Positions 20,917-48,919 of a stretch of 64,000 nucleotides of DNA are shown in pieces; position 1 is the stretch's first letter; every line of letters starts with the position of its first letter. Origin of the DNA: Actinomycetospora chiangmaiensis DSM 45062 (GTDB lineage Bacteria > Actinomycetota > Actinomycetes > Mycobacteriales > Pseudonocardiaceae); assembly GCF_000379625.1 (NCBI RefSeq), contig NZ_KB903223.1:1-64000 (forward strand), read 5' to 3'. The notes under the pieces were generated by a model. The model searched no databases, was not told the origin of the DNA, and saw only the letters and a list, made by a program, of their open reading frames with translations. Position numbers and translations under genes: made by a program.

Positions 20917-21873
20917 TCAGGGCTCCTCGACGAGCACCTGCTCGAGCGGGCGCCGCGGGGTCGCGGGGATCGGTGCCGCGTGCGGCAGGGGGCGGCCGAC
21001 GCGCAGCGCGACGACCGGGAGCCGGTGGGCACCGAGGGCGAGCCGCTGGAGCCGCACCCGGACGCCCGCCACCTCGAGCGCGTGGGTGAACGGCGTGACG
21101 CCGAGCCGCAACGACTCCGCCTCGAGCAGGACCGCGCCCAGCGACTCGCCGGCCCGGACCACGGACACGGGGTCGTCGGCCTGGGCGGCGAGCAGGAACA
21201 CCTGCGCGGCGTCGTACTGGTCGAGGATCGCGTGCGCGGACGTCCGCAGGTCCCGGGGGTGCGGGGCCGGAGCGCCCGGGTTCCCGTCCCGGGCGCCCGC
21301 GAGCCGGTGCGTCCAGCGCTGCAGCTCGCCCGCGTACTCGTCGCGCGCGAGCTGCGCGCGGTCGGCGCGACGGGCGGCGTCCAGGACCGCGCGGCGCGCC
21401 GCCCCGATCATGAGGTGCAGCGTGCCGCCGAACGGCCGGGCGGCCTCGATGAGCAGCTCGACGTCGTCGGGGGCGACCTCCCGGCCCGAGAAGCGGCGCC
21501 GGTCGGTCCGGCGGGTCGGGATGGCGGCGGCCCAACGGCGCAGGCGCGGATCGACCGGACCGTCGGCGGCGGACACCGTCACCCGGGCCAGGGGATGGTC
21601 CTCGTCGCGGTCGGAGCCGTGGCGGACCCGGGCGCACCAGCCGGCGGCGGCGAGCGAGATGCGCAGCTGGGCCAGCGCCGCGCCGCAGCCCAGGAACAGT
21701 CCGAGGGACCGGCCGTCGGCGGCGGGCGGCCGACGGGCGTGGTCGGCCCGCAGGTCGAGGACCTCGCCGTGCAGCCGCCACCGCCAGGGCTGCGTGTTCT
21801 CCTCGGACGGGGCCAACACGGCGTCGCCCAGGGCCGTCCGCAGGGCGTCCCGCACGGCGGCGTCGGCGGTCAC
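20917..21873 (-). CDS. Acg-type nitroreductase family protein
   Basis: This is 318 aa from GTG 21873. It resembles the Acg (Rv2032/Rv3131) branch of the nitroreductase superfamily. Visible blocks are LAPSEENTQPWRWRL at the N-terminus, AALAQLRISLAAAGW, AIPTRRTDRRRFSGREV, and a C-terminal RAGESLGAVLLEAESLRLG. In mycobacteria these proteins are induced by DosR, and some bind but may not turn over FMN. Its GTG overlaps the pseudokinase TGA (GTGA), so the two are co-translated from a promoter bearing a DevR-like box at 23350. Confidence 0.85.
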   Translation of the reverse strand: MTADAAVRDALRTALGDAVLAPSEENTQPWRWRLHGEVLDLRADHARRPPAADGRSLGLFLGCGAALAQLRISLAAAGWCARVRHGSDRDEDHPLARVTVSAADGPVDPRLRRWAAAIPTRRTDRRRFSGREVAPDDVELLIEAARPFGGTLHLMIGAARRAVLDAARRADRAQLARDEYAGELQRWTHRLAGARDGNPGAPAPHPRDLRTSAHAILDQYDAAQVFLLAAQADDPVSVVRAGESLGAVLLEAESLRLGVTPFTHALEVAGVRVRLQRLALGAHRLPVVALRVGRPLPHAAPIPATPRRPLEQVLVEEP

Positions 21874-23288
21874 CGCGGGCCCTGGGTGGCCGAGCGGGTC
21901 GAAATGCGGGCCCGGGTCGACGGCCTCGTGCGGTGGCGGGAGGTGGGGGTGTGCCGGGTGGTCGGGGGCGCCTGGGTCGTCGACGTGACCGGAGGGTCCC
22001 CGCCGGTGGTCGCTCGCGCCGTCGTGGTGGGGGAGCCGGCGGGGGAGTCGACCGGTGGGTCGGTCGCCGGGTCCGGGTCCTTGTACGGCGTGACGGTCGG
22101 CGTGACGGTCCGTGCGGCGATGGGGTGCGGGGCGGAGCTCGCCCTCGGGTCCGGTGCGGAGCTCGCCCTCGGGTCCGGTGCGGTCCTCGTGGTCGCCGGC
22201 CGGGGCCGCACCGACGCGGGGGGCGTGGCCGGCGGCGACATGGCGCCGTGCTCCGGGGCCGGGATCCGCGACCCCACGACGAGGGCCGCTCGGGCCGGGC
22301 GCGGTGCGGCCGTCGTGGTGACCGGGCCCGGAGGGTCGGGCACGGCCACGACCGGGAGGATCGCCTCGACCGGCAGGGCGATCCCGGCCCCGTCGATCCC
22401 GGCCACGTCGATCCCGAGCGTGGCGATCCCGGCGGCGTCGTGGCCCGCGGCGAGGCGGGGTCCGGCGATCGCGAGGGACGCGGCGCATACGAACGAGATC
22501 ACCGCGGAGGCGAGGGCCGTCCGTCGGCGGGCGGGACGGTGGAACCCGTGATCGGGCGGCGGCGGTGCACCCAACCGCCGGACGACGGCGTCGAGGTCGG
22601 GGCGGGCCGCGGGATCGCGGGCCGTCATCGCGCGGAGCGTCCGGCGCAGGTCGGGGTCGTCCCGCGACGGCCCGATCGCGGCGGTGAGCGTGCGGCCGAG
22701 GGCGTAGACGTCCGCGGCCGGCTCGGGGGGCGCACCTCGGACCGTCTCGGGGGCGGCGAAGGGGGGCACGGTCACCGCGCCCGCCCACCGCGCCAGCCAC
22801 TCGCCGGTCCCGACCCCGCCGACCACCACTCCCGACGGGCCCCACGTCACCACCTGCGGGCCGAGGGCGCCGTGGGCGGTGCCCGCACGGTGCAGGGGTC
22901 GCAGCGCGACGGCCACCCGCGTGCCGATCTCCCGCACCGACTCGGCGGGCAGCGGACCGGCGCGGAGCTGGACGGTGAGCGTGTCGCCCTCCGGGCGCTG
23001 GGCGACGAGGTAGAGCGTGTCCTCGTCCCGGCCGCCGTCGAAGACCTCGCCCAGCCCCGGCCCGCGGCCGAGCCGGACGCTCGGGGGCAGGGGGAGCCGG
23101 TCGGGGTCCGGCGGCGCGCCCCGCCCGACCGCGAGCGTGAGCAGGACCGGGCGTCGCAGGACGCCGTCGCGCCCCTCGTGCACGCAGTGGGCGGCGCCCG
23201 TGGCGAGGAGGGCACCGACGGCGTAGCGACCGGCGAGCACGGTGCCGTGATCCTGTGGGCAGGCGAGGTGCACCCCGATGGTCGTCAC
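21870..23288 (-). CDS. Membrane pseudokinase with Pro/Thr-rich exterior
   Basis: This is 472 aa from GTG 23288. Residues about 15-265 follow a protein-kinase fold, but catalytic motifs are lost. The catalytic loop HRDxKxxN reads AHGALGPQ, DFG reads GGVGT, and the activation-end motif survives as FAAPETVRG followed by ADVYALGRTL. A membrane helix follows (TALASAVISFVCAASLAIAG). About 180 extracytoplasmic residues of Pro, Thr and Ala contain two copies of a 24-bp repeat (22132-22179, APDPRASS). It may be a scaffold or ligand-binding pseudokinase. It is coupled to the downstream Acg-type gene. Confidence 0.8.
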   Translation of the reverse strand: MTTIGVHLACPQDHGTVLAGRYAVGALLATGAAHCVHEGRDGVLRRPVLLTLAVGRGAPPDPDRLPLPPSVRLGRGPGLGEVFDGGRDEDTLYLVAQRPEGDTLTVQLRAGPLPAESVREIGTRVAVALRPLHRAGTAHGALGPQVVTWGPSGVVVGGVGTGEWLARWAGAVTVPPFAAPETVRGAPPEPAADVYALGRTLTAAIGPSRDDPDLRRTLRAMTARDPAARPDLDAVVRRLGAPPPPDHGFHRPARRRTALASAVISFVCAASLAIAGPRLAAGHDAAGIATLGIDVAGIDGAGIALPVEAILPVVAVPDPPGPVTTTAAPRPARAALVVGSRIPAPEHGAMSPPATPPASVRPRPATTRTAPDPRASSAPDPRASSAPHPIAARTVTPTVTPYKDPDPATDPPVDSPAGSPTTTARATTGGDPPVTSTTQAPPTTRHTPTSRHRTRPSTRARISTRSATQGPR

Positions 23289-24571: not shown

Positions 24572-27544
24572 TCATGATCCGCCGCCGAACGTCCGCAGGG
24601 TGTCCGCGACGGCGGCCGCGGTCCGCGAGGTCCCGACATCGGGTCGTTGTGCCCAGGCGGTGACGACGACGGACGGGGCGTCGGCGGGCGCGGCCGCGGT
24701 CATCCAGTCGTCGACCCCGCCGCCCGGCACCGAGGGGTCCTCCGCGGTCCCCGACTTGGCGGCGACCGGCACGCCGAGCCCGTCCAGGCCCCGCCCGGTC
24801 CCGCGGGTGACCATCGCGCGCATGCCGTCCCGGACCGGACCCAGGCGGTCGGCGAAGGGCAGCGCCACTGGCGGGGGGTGGGGCAGGGGTGTCGGCCCCA
24901 CGCTCATCCCGACGAACGGCGTCGCGAGCGCCCCGGTCGTGACGGCGGCGGTCCACCGCGCGTCCTGGAGCGGTGTCACCTGCACCGGGCCCTGCCCGAT
25001 GCCGAGGATGATCGTCGACCCCCGGTACCAGGTCCCGCCGGCGGCGGCGACGCTCTCCGGGGTCCCCAGGTAGCCGGCGCTCTCGCCGGGCAGGTCGATG
25101 CCCGTGGGGCTCCCGACGCCGAGCGCGTGCGCGGTCCCGATCATGGTCTCCGGCCCGAGGGCCACCGCGAGCTTGTAGAAGTACACGTCGTTGGACCAGG
25201 CGATCGCGTCGACCAGGTTCTGCGGCGGGAGCACCCGCCAGTTGTTGAAGACGTGCCCGGCGTCGACGTAGGACCCGCCGGTCTCGACCACCTCGTCGGC
25301 CGGGACGACCGGGTGGGTCACCGAGGCGGTCGCGTTGACGAGCTTGAAGGTCGACCCGGGCGGCACCGCGGACGCGATGGCGTGGTCCAGCAGGGGGCTC
25401 CCGGGCGCGTCCGCCGTCGCCTGCAGGGCGGCGATGTCGAGCGGCGGGCCGTAGAGGGCGTCGTCGTGGCTCGGCCAGCTCGCGAGGGCGAGGACCGCGC
25501 CGGAGCGCGGGTCGAGGGCCACCGCGGCGCCGACCGCGCCCCGGGGGCCGCCCTGCAGGGACGTGGCGACGTCGGCGACCAGACGCTGCTGCATCACGAG
25601 GTCGATGGTCAGGGTCAGGGTGGCCCCGGGGACGGCTGGCCGCGTGGACCCGGTCGCGACCGGCCGCCCCCCGGGGTCGACCCAGTAGCACTGCTCCCCG
25701 TCGACCCCGCGCAGGACGCCGTCGTAGGAGGCCTCGACCCCGGCCCGCCCCGTGACGGAGCGGGCGTCCAGATCGCCGGCGCGGGCGGTCTCGACCGGGG
25801 TCGCGGCGCCCACCCAGCCGAGCACGGGGGCGAGCACCGGGCCGGTCGGGTAGTTCCGGCGCGGCGCGGGGACGACCACGACGCCGGGGAGCGCGGCGCG
25901 CCCGATCGCCGTCCCGGTCGGACCGGGGACGACCCCGACGTCGAGATCGACCGTCGTCGCCGGAGCCGCCTCGAGCTGCCGGCGCAGCTCGGCGGGGGAG
26001 CGGCCGAGGAGACCGCGGAGCCGGTCCACGGCCTCCGGGGCCTCCATCAGCAGCGCCGGGGCCACGCGGACGTCGACGTCCCCCGCGTCGGCCGCGAGCA
26101 CGGCGCCGTGCCGGTCGACGACGGTGCCCCGGGGTGCCGGGACGGTCACGCACCGGGTCATCTGGTCGGTCCCGGCCACGACGAGGGCCGGCCGGTCCGC
26201 GGCGAGGGCGCCCGCGCCGTACCCCGCGACCCCGAGGAGCACGACGGTCACGGTGACGACGGCCGTCCGGACGAGGCGTGGGCGGGTGATCGCTGCCGGC
26301 GCCCAGAGCCGCCGGTGCGCGCCGTCCCGGCGGGCCCCGAGGACCAGGCCGAGCGCGGCGAGGTGTACGACCGTGGAGGTCCCGCCGGCCGACAGGATCG
26401 GGAAGGGCACCCCCGCGACCGGCAGCACCCCGAGGTTCCCGCCGAGCGAGACGACCAGCTCGACGCCGAGCAGCACGGCGAAGCCACCGCTCAGCAGGGT
26501 CCCCGCCGAGCTGCGGGGGGCGCGGGCGCCGAGGGCACACCGCCACACGATCACCAGCCCCGCCCCGAGGGCGAGCAGCCCGGCCACCAGGCCCCAGCCC
26601 GCCACCAGCGAGGCGGGGGCGAGGTCGGTGTCCCGCTCGGGGAGGTAGGTGGCGGCGAGGGCGTGGACCGGGTCGGCGTGGTCCCCGAACCAGCCGCCCC
26701 GGGCCATCGCGAGGCGGGCCTGGCGGACGGCCCAACCGGGACCCGCCGCGGACTGCGAGCCCGACAGGTAGGTCCCGAGGCGCTCGAGCTGGTAGTCGTG
26801 CATGAGGCCGAGGGCCAGGGGAGCGGCCACCACCGCGCCCGCCACGACGGGCAGCAGGTGGCGGGCCGGGACCCGCGCGAGCACGAGCACGGCCACGGCC
26901 GTGGCCGTCAGCAGGGCCGCGGTCGACAGGTCGGGCTGGACGGCCACGAGCACGATCGGGAGCCCGGCCAGGGGCACGGCCGCCGCGAACCGCCGCCAGG
27001 AACGGGCCCCGACGCCCAGCACCGCGGCGAGGACGAGGGGCACGGCGATCTTCGCGAGTTCGGACGGCTGGATCGTCAGGGCCCCGGCGCCGAGCCAGCG
27101 ACGGGCCCCGTTGACCTCCAGCCCGGCGACCAGCACGAGGAGGAGCAGGGCCACCGTCACGCCGTACGTCGCCCGGGCCAGCACCGTGGAGACCGGCCGC
27201 CGCCGGGCGGCGAGCGCGAGCATGACGGCGATCCCGACCCCGGCGGTGACGACCTTGTCCCGCGCCTGTGCCGGCTCGCCCGCGGCGACGAGGTTGAGCG
27301 CGCCGAGCGCGACGAGGACGACGGCGGCGGCGACCGCGACGAGGTCCGCGAGGACCTGCCCGCGCGGCTCGGGGCGGTCGTGGTCGCGTCGTGCCTCCCG
27401 TCGGCGCTCCTCGGCGCGGTCCGCCCGATCGGCCCGCCGGGCCGCGCGACCCGAGCGCCGCGTCGGCCGGCCGTCGTCCCCCCACGGCGGTCGGGGGTCG
27501 GGCAACGGTTCCTCCCAGTCGCCCGACCCGTCCCCGGTCAGCAC
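24572..27544 (-). CDS. SEDS (RodA/FtsW) glycosyltransferase fused to class B PBP
   Basis: This is 990 aa from GTG 27544. After a basic N-terminus, residues about 65-430 form a polytopic SEDS domain with RWLGAGALTIQPSELAKI, VQPDLSTAALL, YLPERDTDLAPAS and GVPFPILSAGGTS. A further membrane helix leads into a PBP dimerisation domain (APRGTVVDRHGAVLA). The transpeptidase domain has SxxK in PPGSTFKLV (Ser731), SND in AWSNDVYFY as in PBP2, and KSGT (Lys930). One chain thus carries both glycan polymerase and crosslinker, normally two proteins (RodA and PBP2). The start overlaps the preceding gene by 7 bp in an operon with the MreB-like gene. Confidence 0.9.
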   Translation of the reverse strand: MLTGDGSGDWEEPLPDPRPPWGDDGRPTRRSGRAARRADRADRAEERRREARRDHDRPEPRGQVLADLVAVAAAVVLVALGALNLVAAGEPAQARDKVVTAGVGIAVMLALAARRRPVSTVLARATYGVTVALLLLVLVAGLEVNGARRWLGAGALTIQPSELAKIAVPLVLAAVLGVGARSWRRFAAAVPLAGLPIVLVAVQPDLSTAALLTATAVAVLVLARVPARHLLPVVAGAVVAAPLALGLMHDYQLERLGTYLSGSQSAAGPGWAVRQARLAMARGGWFGDHADPVHALAATYLPERDTDLAPASLVAGWGLVAGLLALGAGLVIVWRCALGARAPRSSAGTLLSGGFAVLLGVELVVSLGGNLGVLPVAGVPFPILSAGGTSTVVHLAALGLVLGARRDGAHRRLWAPAAITRPRLVRTAVVTVTVVLLGVAGYGAGALAADRPALVVAGTDQMTRCVTVPAPRGTVVDRHGAVLAADAGDVDVRVAPALLMEAPEAVDRLRGLLGRSPAELRRQLEAAPATTVDLDVGVVPGPTGTAIGRAALPGVVVVPAPRRNYPTGPVLAPVLGWVGAATPVETARAGDLDARSVTGRAGVEASYDGVLRGVDGEQCYWVDPGGRPVATGSTRPAVPGATLTLTIDLVMQQRLVADVATSLQGGPRGAVGAAVALDPRSGAVLALASWPSHDDALYGPPLDIAALQATADAPGSPLLDHAIASAVPPGSTFKLVNATASVTHPVVPADEVVETGGSYVDAGHVFNNWRVLPPQNLVDAIAWSNDVYFYKLAVALGPETMIGTAHALGVGSPTGIDLPGESAGYLGTPESVAAAGGTWYRGSTIILGIGQGPVQVTPLQDARWTAAVTTGALATPFVGMSVGPTPLPHPPPVALPFADRLGPVRDGMRAMVTRGTGRGLDGLGVPVAAKSGTAEDPSVPGGGVDDWMTAAAPADAPSVVVTAWAQRPDVGTSRTAAAVADTLRTFGGGS

Positions 27545-28155
27545 GGCCCGCCGCCCACCGGTGTGGCCGCGGAGGCCGCCCGGTCCGCCCCGTCCGTCAC
27601 CGCGAGCAGGGCGATCGCGGGCGAGTCCGGCAGGGGCACCGTCGTGACCCCGTAGGTCCCGGACCCGGGAGGCGTCGTCGCCCCGGGCGACGTCGTGGTG
27701 AGCCCCCGGCAGCGGTCGACGACCACGACGGTCCACGGCGTGGCCGTCGGCGCCGTGCCGTCGCGCCGGTCCACCCCGACGGCGACCGTGCACGGCCGGG
27801 CGGGCTCGCAGGGCCCGGCGAGGACCCGGAGCCGGACACCCGACACGTCGCCCGCGGCGGCCGGCGCGGGACGCGGCACCGGCGGGAGCCCACCCGTCGT
27901 CGGGACGGCCGTCGGGGCGGCGCCCGCCGCCGCCAGCCGGGCGAGATCGGTGGCGATCCGTCCGCGGAGCAGACCGAGCTCGGCGCCCACCACGACGACG
28001 ACGGCCAGGAGGGCCACCAGCCAGGGCCAGGTCCGCCGCCAGCCCCGCCGCAACGAGGTCCGGACGCCGGGTCGGGTCGGGGGAGGGGGGAAGACGGGTG
28101 CCGCGAGGACGCGGTCCGGGGGGAGGGCCCGGTCGCGCGGCGGGAGGGTCGTCAC
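27538..28155 (-). CDS. Single-pass membrane protein between MreB-like and SEDS-PBP genes
   Basis: This is 205 aa from GTG 28155. A Pro/Arg-rich cytoplasmic N-terminus of about 45 residues precedes one membrane helix (WPWLVALLAVVVVVGAELGLL). About 140 extracytoplasmic residues follow, with four Cys (GPCEPARPCTV, VVVVDRCRG and a C-terminal GGGPC) that could form disulfides. It is coupled on both sides: GTGA overlap with the MreB-like gene and 7-bp overlap with the SEDS-PBP gene. It shows no MreC or MreD similarity I can see, but the position is where a linker of that kind would be. Confidence 0.75.
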   Translation of the reverse strand: MTTLPPRDRALPPDRVLAAPVFPPPPTRPGVRTSLRRGWRRTWPWLVALLAVVVVVGAELGLLRGRIATDLARLAAAGAAPTAVPTTGGLPPVPRPAPAAAGDVSGVRLRVLAGPCEPARPCTVAVGVDRRDGTAPTATPWTVVVVDRCRGLTTTSPGATTPPGSGTYGVTTVPLPDSPAIALLAVTDGADRAASAATPVGGGPC

Positions 28156-29150
28156 CGACCGGCTCCCACCGGGAACGCCGGGACGGCCCCGTGTCGCCGG
28201 GCCAGCAGCGCGAGTCCCTCGGCCACGCAGGTCGTCGGGCGCTCGGGGACCTTGACGGGGAGGCCGAGCGTCTCCTCGAGATCGTCCCGGAGCCGCGTGG
28301 TGAGGGAGCCGCCGCCGAGCAGGAGGACGCCCTCGGCGAGCAGGTCCGGCACCGCCGCGACCGGCAGGTCGTCCAGCCCGTCGGCGAGGGCGGCCACGAG
28401 CGCCCGGCGGGTGGGCGCGATCGCGCGGGCCACCTCCGCCGCGTCGACCCCCGCGATGCGGGGGCGCCCGGTCGCGAGGTCGCGGCCCTCGGCGACGAGC
28501 CCCTCACCGTCGGGCGACGACGCGCAGCACTTGAGGCGCTCGGCCACCTCCGTCGTGACGTGCAGGCCGTGGACCTCGCGGAGGTGGGACCGCACCGCCG
28601 CCGTCATCTCGTCGCCCCCGCGGGTGCACGACCGTCGCGCCAGGACCTCCCCCCGGCACAGGACGAGGAGTTCGGCGTGGCCCGCCCCGACGTCGGCGAC
28701 CGCCCGGACGCGGGCCTCCGCGACGTCCACCCCGGCCCCGGTCGCGCCGGCGAGACCGGCCGGCACGAGATCGACGCGGGCCAGGCCCGCCTCCCGGGCC
28801 GCCTCGAGCAGCGCGCGGCGTTCCAGCGGGGTCGCGCCCGCCGGCACGCCGATCGCGGCACGCGTCCGCCGGGCGGCGAACGGACCCGGGATCGCCCGGC
28901 GCACGAGCGCGGCGAGGTAGGTCCGCGCGAGGGCGAGGTCGGTGACCACCCCGCCCTGCACGGGGCGCCCGACCCGCACGCGGTCCGGGACGCGGCCGAC
29001 GAGCGCCGCGGCCTCGGTGCCGAGGAGGACCCCGGACCGGCGTTCCCCGAACCCGGCGAGCAGGACGCTGGGCTGGTCGTGGAGGACCCCGTCGCGGGGA
29101 TGGCAGACCACGGTGGTCGCCGTGCCCAGGTCGATGCCGATCTCCCCCAT
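28152..29150 (-). CDS. mreB: MreB-like actin-fold protein
   Basis: This is 332 aa from ATG 29150 with GAGGGGG 7 nt upstream. Actin-fold nucleotide motifs are present: phosphate 1 IGIDLGTATTVV, phosphate 2 VADVGAGHAELLVL, and adenosine LLLGGGSLTTRL followed by RPTTCVAEGLALL, the MreB-type end. It is slightly shorter than typical MreB and diverged in the middle, so MreB-like is safer than orthologue. MreB filaments direct lateral wall growth, yet many polar-growing actinobacteria lack a conventional system. It heads a three-gene unit with a membrane protein and a SEDS-PBP fusion, and a DevR-like box lies 87-103 bp upstream. Confidence 0.82.
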   Translation of the reverse strand: MGEIGIDLGTATTVVCHPRDGVLHDQPSVLLAGFGERRSGVLLGTEAAALVGRVPDRVRVGRPVQGGVVTDLALARTYLAALVRRAIPGPFAARRTRAAIGVPAGATPLERRALLEAAREAGLARVDLVPAGLAGATGAGVDVAEARVRAVADVGAGHAELLVLCRGEVLARRSCTRGGDEMTAAVRSHLREVHGLHVTTEVAERLKCCASSPDGEGLVAEGRDLATGRPRIAGVDAAEVARAIAPTRRALVAALADGLDDLPVAAVPDLLAEGVLLLGGGSLTTRLRDDLEETLGLPVKVPERPTTCVAEGLALLARRHGAVPAFPVGAGR

Positions 29151-29236
29151 CGAGTCCCCCTCGCGTGCCGCGCTCCTCGGGTACGGACGCTAGGCCGGGA
29201 GCTCGCTCGCAGGTCAGGGTCGTTGCTCCTCGCGGG

Positions 29237-29253
29237 GGCTGCCCGAAGGTCCC
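29237..29253 (-). promoter_or_regulatory. Candidate DevR box upstream of the mreB-like operon
   Basis: The minus strand begins GGGACCTTCGG, an exact 11-base match to the core of the local consensus, then diverges (12 of 17 overall). It lies 87 bp upstream of the MreB-like start, in the 112-bp gap after the preceding gene. Confidence 0.5.
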
Positions 29254-35571: not shown

Positions 35572-37236
35572 GTGGAGCGCCCGGTGCACCCGCAGGGCGT
35601 CGCGCGACGGGCCGACGACCTGCTGCGGTCGGTGGTCGCGGTGGCCGACGGGCTCGACCTGGAGGAGACGCTCGTCCGCGTCGTGCGCGAGGCGATCGAG
35701 CTGGTCGACGCCCGCTACGGGGCCCTGGCGCTGCTCGACGACGCCGGGACCGCCCTGGCCCGGTTCGTCACCGCCGGGATCGACGAGACGACCAGGTCGG
35801 GCCTCGGGTCGCCGCCGCGCGGGCACGGCCTCCTCGGCGAGCTGATCCGTCACCCCGTGCCGCTGCGGCTGGACGACCTGCGCGACCACCCCGCGTCGGT
35901 CGGTGTGCCGGCCGGTCATCCGCCCATGCGCTCGTTCCTCGGGGTGCCGGTGCGCGTGCGGGAACGGGTGGTGGGCAACCTCTACCTCACCGACAAGCGG
36001 GGCGGTCCCTTCACCGTCGACGACGAGGACGCCACCGGCGCGCTCGCGGCCGTGGCCGGGGTCGCGGTGGAGAACGCCCGGCTGCACGACCGGACCCGGC
36101 GGCTGGCCGCCGAGGCGATGCGGCGCCAGCAGTGGGTCGAGGCCGCGGGGGAGATCACCACGCACCTGCTCGCGGGCGCCGACCCGGGCGAGGCGCTGGC
36201 CCTGGTGGCACAGCGGGCCGCCGAGCTGACCGGCGCCGCGGGCGCCCTGATCACGACGCCGCCCCAGGCGACCGCCGACCACGACACCCCACCGCCGGTC
36301 CGGGTCACGGTCTGCGTGGGCCTCGAGGACCGTCACCCGCCCGGGAGCCGTGTCGCGATCGCGGGCACGGTGCTCGACGCGGTCGCGCGGACGCGCGCAC
36401 CGCACGTCGTCGCGGACCTCCGGCTGCTCCCCGACGGCGAGGGTCTCGGTCCGGGCCTCGCGGTCCCGTTGCGCAGCGGGGAGGACCTGAGCGGTGTCCT
36501 CGTCGTGGCCGGGGTGGACGGCTGGTCGGGGACCGCGGACGACGACGGGCTCGCCGTCGTGGCGTCGTTCGCCGACCAGGCCGCGCTCGTGCTCCGGCTC
36601 GCGGAGTCCCAGCGGGCGCGGCGTCAGCTCGACGTCGTGACCGACCGGGAGCGGATCGCCGCCGATCTCCACGACCACGTGCTGCAGCGGCTGTTCGCCC
36701 TCGGCCTGGGCCTGCAGGCCGCGCACGCCCGGTTGCCCGCGTCGGACGGCGCACGGCGGGTGGACGAGGCGGTGGACCAGATCGACGGCATCATCCGTGA
36801 CATCCGCACGTCCATCTTCGACCTGCACACCGCGGGGGAGCACGACCTCGGGGTGCGGGTCCGGGGGGTCGTCGCCGAGATGACCGCGCAGTCGGGCATC
36901 GAGCCGGTGGTGCGGCTCTCCGGTGCGGTCGCCACGGTGCCGGAGGACCTCGCGGTCGCCGTCGAGGCCGTGGTCCGGGAGGCGGTCAGCAACGTGGTCC
37001 GCCACGCCGCCGCGTCGACGGTGACGGTCACCGTCGCCGCGGACTCGCAGCTGGTCGTCGACGTGAGCGACGACGGGGTCGGCATCCCCGACGCCGTCGC
37101 CCGCAGTGGTCTCGCCAACCTCGCGGCCCGGGCCCGCGCCGCCGGCGGTGACGCGCGGGTCGGACGCCGCACGGTCGGTCCCGGGACCCGCATGACGTGG
37201 TGGGTCCCGCTCGACCCCACACCCACCGAATCCTGA
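35572..37236 (+). CDS. devS: DevS/DosS-type GAF-GAF sensor histidine kinase
   Basis: This is 554 aa from GTG 35572, preceded by GAAGGGAC. GAF1 (about 30-170) contains ASVGVPAGHPPMRSFLGVP, whose His116 matches the proximal heme ligand region of DosS, and VGNLYLTDKRGGPF. GAF2 spans about 195-345. The kinase helix is ERIAADLHDHVLQRLFALGL with phospho-His367, followed by an HATPase domain (VVREAVSNVVRHA, DDGVGIPD, SGLANLAARA). It should sense O2, CO, NO or redox state through GAF heme and phosphorylate DevR, encoded 18 bp downstream. Confidence 0.92.
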   Translation: MERPVHPQGVARRADDLLRSVVAVADGLDLEETLVRVVREAIELVDARYGALALLDDAGTALARFVTAGIDETTRSGLGSPPRGHGLLGELIRHPVPLRLDDLRDHPASVGVPAGHPPMRSFLGVPVRVRERVVGNLYLTDKRGGPFTVDDEDATGALAAVAGVAVENARLHDRTRRLAAEAMRRQQWVEAAGEITTHLLAGADPGEALALVAQRAAELTGAAGALITTPPQATADHDTPPPVRVTVCVGLEDRHPPGSRVAIAGTVLDAVARTRAPHVVADLRLLPDGEGLGPGLAVPLRSGEDLSGVLVVAGVDGWSGTADDDGLAVVASFADQAALVLRLAESQRARRQLDVVTDRERIAADLHDHVLQRLFALGLGLQAAHARLPASDGARRVDEAVDQIDGIIRDIRTSIFDLHTAGEHDLGVRVRGVVAEMTAQSGIEPVVRLSGAVATVPEDLAVAVEAVVREAVSNVVRHAAASTVTVTVAADSQLVVDVSDDGVGIPDAVARSGLANLAARARAAGGDARVGRRTVGPGTRMTWWVPLDPTPTES

Positions 37237-37254: not shown

Positions 37255-37902
37255 ATGACGACGGTGTTCCTGGTCGACGACCACGAGGTGGTGCGGCGGG
37301 GGGTGGCCGACCTGCTGGGCGCCCACGAGGATCTCACCGTGATCGGCGACGCCGGCAGCGTCGCCGAGGCGCTCGCCCGCATCCCGGCGCTCGCCCCCGA
37401 CGTCGCCGTGCTGGACGTGCGCCTGCCCGACGGCAGCGGCGTGGAGCTCTGCCGCGAGCTGCGCTCGCGGATGCCGGCGCTGCGCTGCCTGATGCTCACC
37501 TCCTACACCGACGAGCAGGCCATGTTCGACGCCGTCCTCGCGGGCGCCGGCGGCTTCGTCATCAAGGACGTCCGCGGGAACGACATCGTCAACGCGGTGC
37601 GTGAGGTCGGCGCCGGGCGCTCCCTGCTCGACGGTCGCGCGGCGACCGCGCTGATGAGCCGGCTCCGGGACCGTTCGGAGGCGGTCGACCCGCTGGCGGA
37701 GCTGACCGAGAAGGAACGCGACGTCCTCGGCTACATCGGCGAGGGGCTCACCAACCGCGAGATCGGGCAGCGCATGTTCCTCGCCGAGAAGACGGTGAAG
37801 AACTACGTGTCGGCGCTGCTGGCGAAGCTCGGCATGCAGCGCCGGGTCCAGGCGGCCGTCCTCGCGAACCAGGTCAAGGGGCAGTCCGCCCCCCGGGGCT
37901 GA
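37255..37902 (+). CDS. devR: DevR/DosR-type response regulator
   Basis: This is 215 aa from ATG 37255 with GAGAAGAGGA upstream. It is very close to M. tuberculosis DosR. The receiver has [17 protein letters not shown], phospho-acceptor Asp54 in [25 protein letters not shown] and FVIKDVRG. The linker holds [16 protein letters not shown]. The LuxR-type DNA-binding domain has [20 protein letters not shown] and the helix [14 protein letters not shown]. The Lys/Asn residues that contact the DosR box (TVKN) are conserved. It is predicted to bind the GGGACC...GGCCC sites around this locus. Confidence 0.95.
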
Positions 37903-39741: not shown

Positions 39742-39758
39742 CCAGGGCCGAAGGTCCC
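39742..39758 (-). promoter_or_regulatory. Exact-consensus DevR box before CHASE3 kinase gene
   Basis: The minus strand reads GGGACCTTCGGCCCTGG, the consensus used here. It ends 58 bp before GTG 39817. Confidence 0.65.
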
Positions 39759-48850: not shown

Positions 48851-48919
48851 GTCCCGACGGCGGGTCCAACGGCCCGCCGACCGGGGACCGGCGCCCCGCC
48901 CGCCGGGCGTGGTCGCGGT

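Follow-up and report, generated by a model that had tools for sequence, protein, structure and literature searches.

Here we describe a three-gene cassette of the cell wall synthesis type in Actinomycetospora chiangmaiensis DSM 45062, located in a 64,000-nucleotide stretch of DNA (contig NZ_KB903223.1, positions 1 to 64,000) that was analysed whole and is called the window below. All three genes lie on the minus strand, with overlaps of 4 and 7 nucleotides between them. The first (28152-29150) encodes an MreB-like actin-fold protein of 332 amino acids that matches PF06723 at 215 bits against a cut-off of 27. It is followed by a gene that we call mid (27538-28155), for a single-pass membrane protein of 205 amino acids without a Pfam match at E 0.001. 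The last (24572-27544) encodes a fusion of 990 amino acids between a SEDS protein of the RodA type and a class B penicillin-binding protein (PBP) of the PBP2 type, in which PF01098, PF03717 and PF00905 all exceed their cut-offs. The open reading frames (ORFs) and Pfam domains thus bear out the three overlapping genes that a sequence-only reading of this DNA had described.

Within the fusion, the SEDS part (26330-27322, minus strand, PF01098) carries Asp307, which aligns with the Asp of the HTD motif in solved RodA, and the PBP dimerisation domain and transpeptidase (24605-26143, minus strand) retain the SxxK, SND and KSG motifs. Among 57 aligned fusions, counting only the rows with a letter at each position, the SEDS Asp is found in 56/56, the Ser and Lys of SxxK in 55/55 and the Lys of KSG in 54/54. 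The fusion falls under the NCBIfam cut-offs for both rodA and pbp2, and its motifs predict that RodA and PBP2 activities are encoded in one protein. Moreover, the PBP part holds an extracytoplasmic pair of cysteines, C465 and C619 (window positions ~26150 and ~25688, the former just before the 24605-26143 stretch), which is invariant in 55/55 cassette fusions with a letter there. A close SEDS::PBP fusion is also encoded on large Rhodococcus plasmids (L158, 5357-8574; L159, 5392-8217), preceded in L158 by a short match to the mid ectodomain; no mreB match was found in the stretches read from these two plasmids. The one plasmid fusion that was translated has cysteines at like places, and therefore the pair marks the fusion type and not the cassette alone.

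The MreB-like protein passes the Pfam MreB_Mbl family yet lies far under the NCBIfam subfamily cut-offs (TIGR00904, 180 against 365.75 bits; PRK13927, 207 against 293), and by these scores we therefore read it as a divergent MreB. In the genome of A. chiangmaiensis only one MreB reaches E 1e-30, and there are five SEDS matches. Weaker Pfam MreB matches in the same genome sit in open frames of 646-738 amino acids and are probably Hsp70-type proteins.

We next consider how widely the three genes travel together. A profile search with mid, in which each tally counts the genome of A. chiangmaiensis itself, gave 39 positives among 390 family genomes, 22 among 397 genomes of an order sample, 6 among 394 of a class sample and 1 among 296 of a phylum sample. 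With each genome counted once, 63 others were mid-positive; the surroundings were read in 58 of these, the other five (G465, G517, G600, G680 and G688) belonging to the order sample. SEDS::PBP stands beside mid in 56/58, the remaining two ending at a contig edge, and MreB lies within the stretch read in 51/58. In five of the seven remaining genomes MreB lies on another contig (G272, G372, G370, G518 and G543), and in two it is ~9 kb (G329) or ~7 kb (G573) away; the G573 match is split between two frames, and its two pieces were kept as pieces. By a simple gene caller applied to at most ~20 kb per locus, every further gene family was confined to 10 or fewer of the 58 loci. A search of genome contigs with the MreB protein returned only 3 distant MreBs, and a search by genome was used instead. 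With this, MreB was found in 8 of the 18 genomes of the genus and mid in the same 8; neither was found in the other ten, among which G004 and G014 are only 83% and 59% complete. Across 60 family genomes, both were present in 11 and neither in 49, the absence of mid from the 49 being taken from the matches listed for the 390 family genomes and not seen for each by name, and the weak matches G002 (E 8.7e-4) and G029 (E 1.5e-4) being left out of the MreB count. All 59 cassette genomes contain an MreB. In the genus mreB leads the operon; elsewhere it is mostly convergent with mid-SEDS::PBP. The three genes form a conserved unit. A gene-neighbourhood survey like the one that the sequence-only reading had proposed for Pseudonocardiaceae found the cassette genes linked, and homologues occurring together instead of always apart.

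The sequence-only reading of an MreB/RodA/PBP2-type wall-synthesis cassette is supported, in a genome (97.6% complete) in which MreC (PF04085) was not found. MreC occurs in 4/59 cassette genomes, three of which also hold a second MreB scoring as canonical. The membrane partner mid has one transmembrane (TM) segment and an extracytoplasmic immunoglobulin-like (Ig-like) domain, whose supposedly Cys-rich character comes down to four invariant cysteines (C116, C122, C149 and C205); by the positive-inside rule its N-terminus would be cytoplasmic. In longer mids a cytoplasmic domain related to protein kinases precedes the TM segment and the Ig-like ectodomain, and mid of relatives passes the Pfam kinase family cut-off. 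We class this domain as a pseudokinase from its motifs, because the catalytic Asp of HRD and DFG is not kept (HGR and DWA in the mid of G543), and mid probably descends from a pseudokinase. The window mid is the short form without this domain, and the mid N-terminus is lost in most of the genus. As a candidate MreC, mid was rejected: it has no Pfam match, and MreC is not among the listed fold matches, an absence that is inconclusive by itself. The cysteine pair of the fusion and the four cysteines of mid suggest disulfide chemistry at a complex that these proteins would form. The safest claim is that the cassette is an MreC-less variant of the elongasome with a pseudokinase-derived partner.

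The sequence-only reading had also placed a DevR-like box ahead of mreB. This box (29240-29253, minus strand, 89 bp from the mreB start) reads GGGACCTTCGGGCA. Its first half, GGGACCTTCGG (29243-29253, minus strand), is perfect over 11 nucleotides and is shared with boxes at 39745 and 42425; it occurs 5 times in the window against 0.09 expected from shuffles, four of the five inside an island around devRS. The 11-mer is found 102-118 bp before mreB in 7/8 genus cassettes, most of them outside the island, with the first G changed in G008; G015 retains only CTTCGG. A second DevR-like site (29217-29230, minus strand, score 7.1) lies 23 bp nearer mreB and, in most relatives, coincides in part with a ATCGACCCTG-related block. 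A second block ~22 bp downstream of the 11-mer is partly conserved across the genus cassettes, an arrangement that resembles tandem DevR boxes in its spacing. Closer still to the gene, the hexamer TAGCGT (29187-29192, minus strand), of the form TANNNT and kept in most relatives, is a possible -10 element. What stands of the predicted box is therefore its perfect, conserved 11-nucleotide half; the second half is poor.

Boxes were scored in the first place with a hand-made matrix, softer than the Mycobacterium tuberculosis consensus, and then with a matrix trained on 14 other promoter boxes of the window, hand-picked from the top list of the former, one of which reached a score of just 1.0 on being withheld from the training set. 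The hand-made matrix has 14 intergenic sites among its top 24, though only 13% of the window is intergenic. The M. tuberculosis 20-mer DevR consensus gave nothing above 14/20 in the window. The trained matrix marks a DevR-type island at 20-49 kb, which contains a DevR-type response regulator (37255-37902, plus strand), the presumed controller, a DevS-type GAF histidine kinase (35572-37236, plus strand), the presumed sensor, as well as Usp genes and a nitroreductase gene. Beside the latter lies a degenerate protein-kinase-like gene (21870-23288; Pkinase 18.7 bits, under the cut-off). At the end of the island an Rpf-type transglycosylase (PF06737, 48497-48850) is followed by two DevR-like boxes 22 bp apart (48862-48897), upstream of the next gene. 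DevR control of the cassette in this genus appears likely.

A DevR relative (E 1e-45) is present in 56/59 cassette genomes. With positions taken as independent and relatedness and contig ends ignored, devR lies within 10 kb of the cassette in 3/59 (A. chiangmaiensis, G010 and G700; 0.42 expected, p 0.009) and within 20 kb in 5/59 (adding G339 and G441; 0.75 expected, p 9e-4). Outside this count, mreB of G351 adjoins a Usp gene and a truncated devR-like ORF. In G334, G335 and G339, genes identified from Pfam hits in G339 and sequence likeness as Usp, CBS, DUF1918 and Rv2632c-like lie near the cassette, together with a GAF/DevS-type gene. Strong DevR boxes are modestly enriched at cassette promoters: a score of at least 11.9 is reached by 10/102 of them (8 loci) compared with 23/604 others (p 0.013), and by 6/89 compared with 9/516 (p 0.014) when seven devR-type loci are dropped on both sides; for intergenic boxes only, p ranges from 0.016 to 0.04. 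Strong boxes precede mreB or mid in G366, G351, G441, G334, G335, G378, G834 and G1043. In G700 and G665 a strong box precedes the gene just upstream of mreB, which in G339, G334 and G335 is a Usp gene likewise preceded by one. In two genomes of the group f16 an uncharacterised gene (L143, 9391-10125; L144, 4844-5557) stands between a strong DevR-type box and mreB, the box in L143 being shared with a divergent devR. Since the promoter element is conserved, devR is near the cassette in other genomes and boxes are modestly enriched, these patterns support a DevR link that is more than adjacency.

The MreB sequences add a further layer. In solved MreB the EEP motif has a second Glu, which we take from structure work to be catalytic; the window MreB has A131 at the aligned position, and its second phosphate motif reads GAG instead of GGG. 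This Glu is kept in 13/13 canonical MreBs examined from the order, in an alignment that replaced one with three wrong-strand rows (L033, L034 and L038). Within the genus, Glu to Ala and GGG to GAG are found in A. chiangmaiensis and its six closest members, and G015 retains both original motifs. The Glu is again replaced, by Ala or Gly, and accompanied by GAG in all 7 members of one sub-clade of the genus g5 (G329, G334, G335, G339, G351, G366 and G378), 6 of which have devR/devS, Usp or strong-box links; in G329 a strong site precedes only the gene adjoining mid. The remaining 13 readable g5 MreBs retain the Glu, G364 being a gap and G379 combining Glu with GAG. A coupling of Glu loss to the DevR link outside g1 and g5 was rejected, as the two do not coincide in f16 and f41: strong boxes occur with the Glu kept in G700, G665 and G441 (f16) and in G834 and G1043 (f41), and the Glu is absent from G653, G559, G591, G677 and G703 (f16) and from G518 (f2), in the last of which no DevR link was seen. 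From the aligned residues we infer that a Glu-less MreB may be hydrolysis-dead.

These parallel changes can be read in two further ways. The first is that the cassette is a dormancy elongasome, in which at least two lineages, the genus of A. chiangmaiensis and the g5 sub-clade, combined DevR/OsdR-type control with parallel loss of the Glu to give a nucleotide-locked, static scaffold, with which non-growing cells would rebuild or thicken the wall away from the poles; we regard this as possible and hold it only tentatively. The second is that the cassette is a relic: a wall-synthesis unit that spread horizontally, is now under relaxed selection and is on its way to loss, with its MreB ATPase site and the pseudokinase part of mid eroding. 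Its patchy presence, including its absence from 10/18 genus genomes (two of the ten less than 85% complete), the fact that most of the genus has lost both the Glu and the N-terminal part of mid, and the two Rhodococcus plasmids with a fusion and no mreB in the stretches read are as a relic would predict. However, the enzyme residues and gene order are all kept in the genus, no reading frame is broken in any of the eight genus cassettes up to the ends of their contigs, and a second genus shows the same changes of Glu and GAG; we consider erosion improbable.

The explanation that we favour overall, with somewhat better than even confidence, is an MreC-less elongasome variant that was put under DevR control in some lineages. 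Several observations weigh against it. As a whole the box 14-mer before mreB is weak, scoring 5.4 (rank 108 of 63,987 window positions and 51 of 8,231 intergenic ones), and in G008, G009 and G012 the second half-site GTCCC is present but shifted by 2 bp, which speaks against a textbook box. The outcome of the enrichment test varies with the score cut-off (compared with all others, p is 0.10 at 10, 0.046 at 11, 0.013 at 11.9 and 0.32 at 13; without devR-type loci on both sides, 0.049, 0.007, 0.014 and 0.10), and the tests ignore the kinship of the genomes. With the catalytic Glu missing, filament dynamics of the window MreB may be lost. For mid, which has no MreC match, a coupling role is suggested by position only. 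Lastly, most of the 58 other cassettes have neither a devR neighbour nor a strong box, and 5/7 other cassettes of the genus have different surroundings, of a housekeeping type (G008 among them being seen only on a 4-kb contig), with a putative murB, named by eye, on one side in four. Dormancy is therefore not the general role of the cassette, nor is the cassette in itself a dormancy device. Thus the dormancy and DevR control proposed by the sequence-only reading gained a conserved 11-mer, devR proximity and box enrichment, and lost its generality.

The same scarcity of DevR links and the same housekeeping setting would suit a sporulation or vegetative wall module, like the mre and spore-wall complex of Streptomyces, that in a few species merely lies near the devRS island, or was transferred to it, and is not controlled by DevR. 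Polar-growing actinobacteria have been described as growing without MreB, Streptomyces keeping it for sporulation only (PMC3296230), in line with such a module. On the other hand, the 11-mer is kept before mreB outside the island too, and further genera and families likewise show boxes and a nearby devR; we hold the module to be a possible but less likely explanation. Moreover, OsdR, the Streptomyces DevR, itself affects sporulation (PMC5069765), so both readings may merge.

For the favoured elongasome variant, we propose the following mechanism. In the genus, the operon would be read from a DevR-type promoter to which DevR would bind, and the machine would be made under hypoxia or nitric oxide or in dormant or differentiating cells. 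The MreB-like protein would act as a membrane-associated scaffold positioning the fusion enzyme, which would carry out lipid II polymerisation and strand cross-linking as a single polypeptide, and mid may have the role, coupling or activating, that elsewhere belongs to MreC or RodZ. The output may be a lateral or spore wall reinforced or remodelled in places that polar growth does not supply.

As an annotation, MreB is already known from bacteria of this kind: all genomes of a Geodermatophilaceae study have it annotated (PMC9686282). In the open literature, with most subscription journals and preprints outside coverage, no title or beginning of an abstract naming this three-gene unit turned up. 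What the cassette adds is a recurrent MreB unit in which a pseudokinase-derived receptor takes the place of MreC and the polymerase and its cross-linker are one protein. In this compact setting one can ask how MreB works in the absence of MreC, and whether DevR-controlled dormancy turns wall synthesis on rather than off.

The cassette shares features with several known systems. Its neighbours devRS, Usp, nitroreductase and GAF genes are those of the DevR/DosR regulon of mycobacteria and of OsdR in Streptomyces, and the window boxes resemble the OsdR box AGGGCCGATCGGCCCT (PMC5069765), a paper whose main text does not contain mreB or rodA. With the canonical Rod complex (MreBCD-RodZ-RodA-PBP2) it shares an MreB homologue and RodA and PBP2 activities encoded together. 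However, here RodA and PBP2 are one polypeptide, MreC was not found in 55/59 genomes, the partner is pseudokinase-derived and Ig-like, and the MreB lies far under the NCBIfam mreB cut-off. The Streptomyces spore wall synthesising complex (SSSC) is likewise an mre-type system in an actinobacterium, and it includes a Ser/Thr kinase, with phosphorylation of MreC and PBP2 reported (PMC4416010). The SSSC has MreC, whereas the cassette was found without it and has a kinase-derived partner that is degenerate and membrane-linked. Natural SEDS-PBP fusions have been noted to exist (PMC10449877) and occur also on Rhodococcus plasmids; they too encode both activities in a single ORF, but the fusion of the cassette is tied to MreB and mid.

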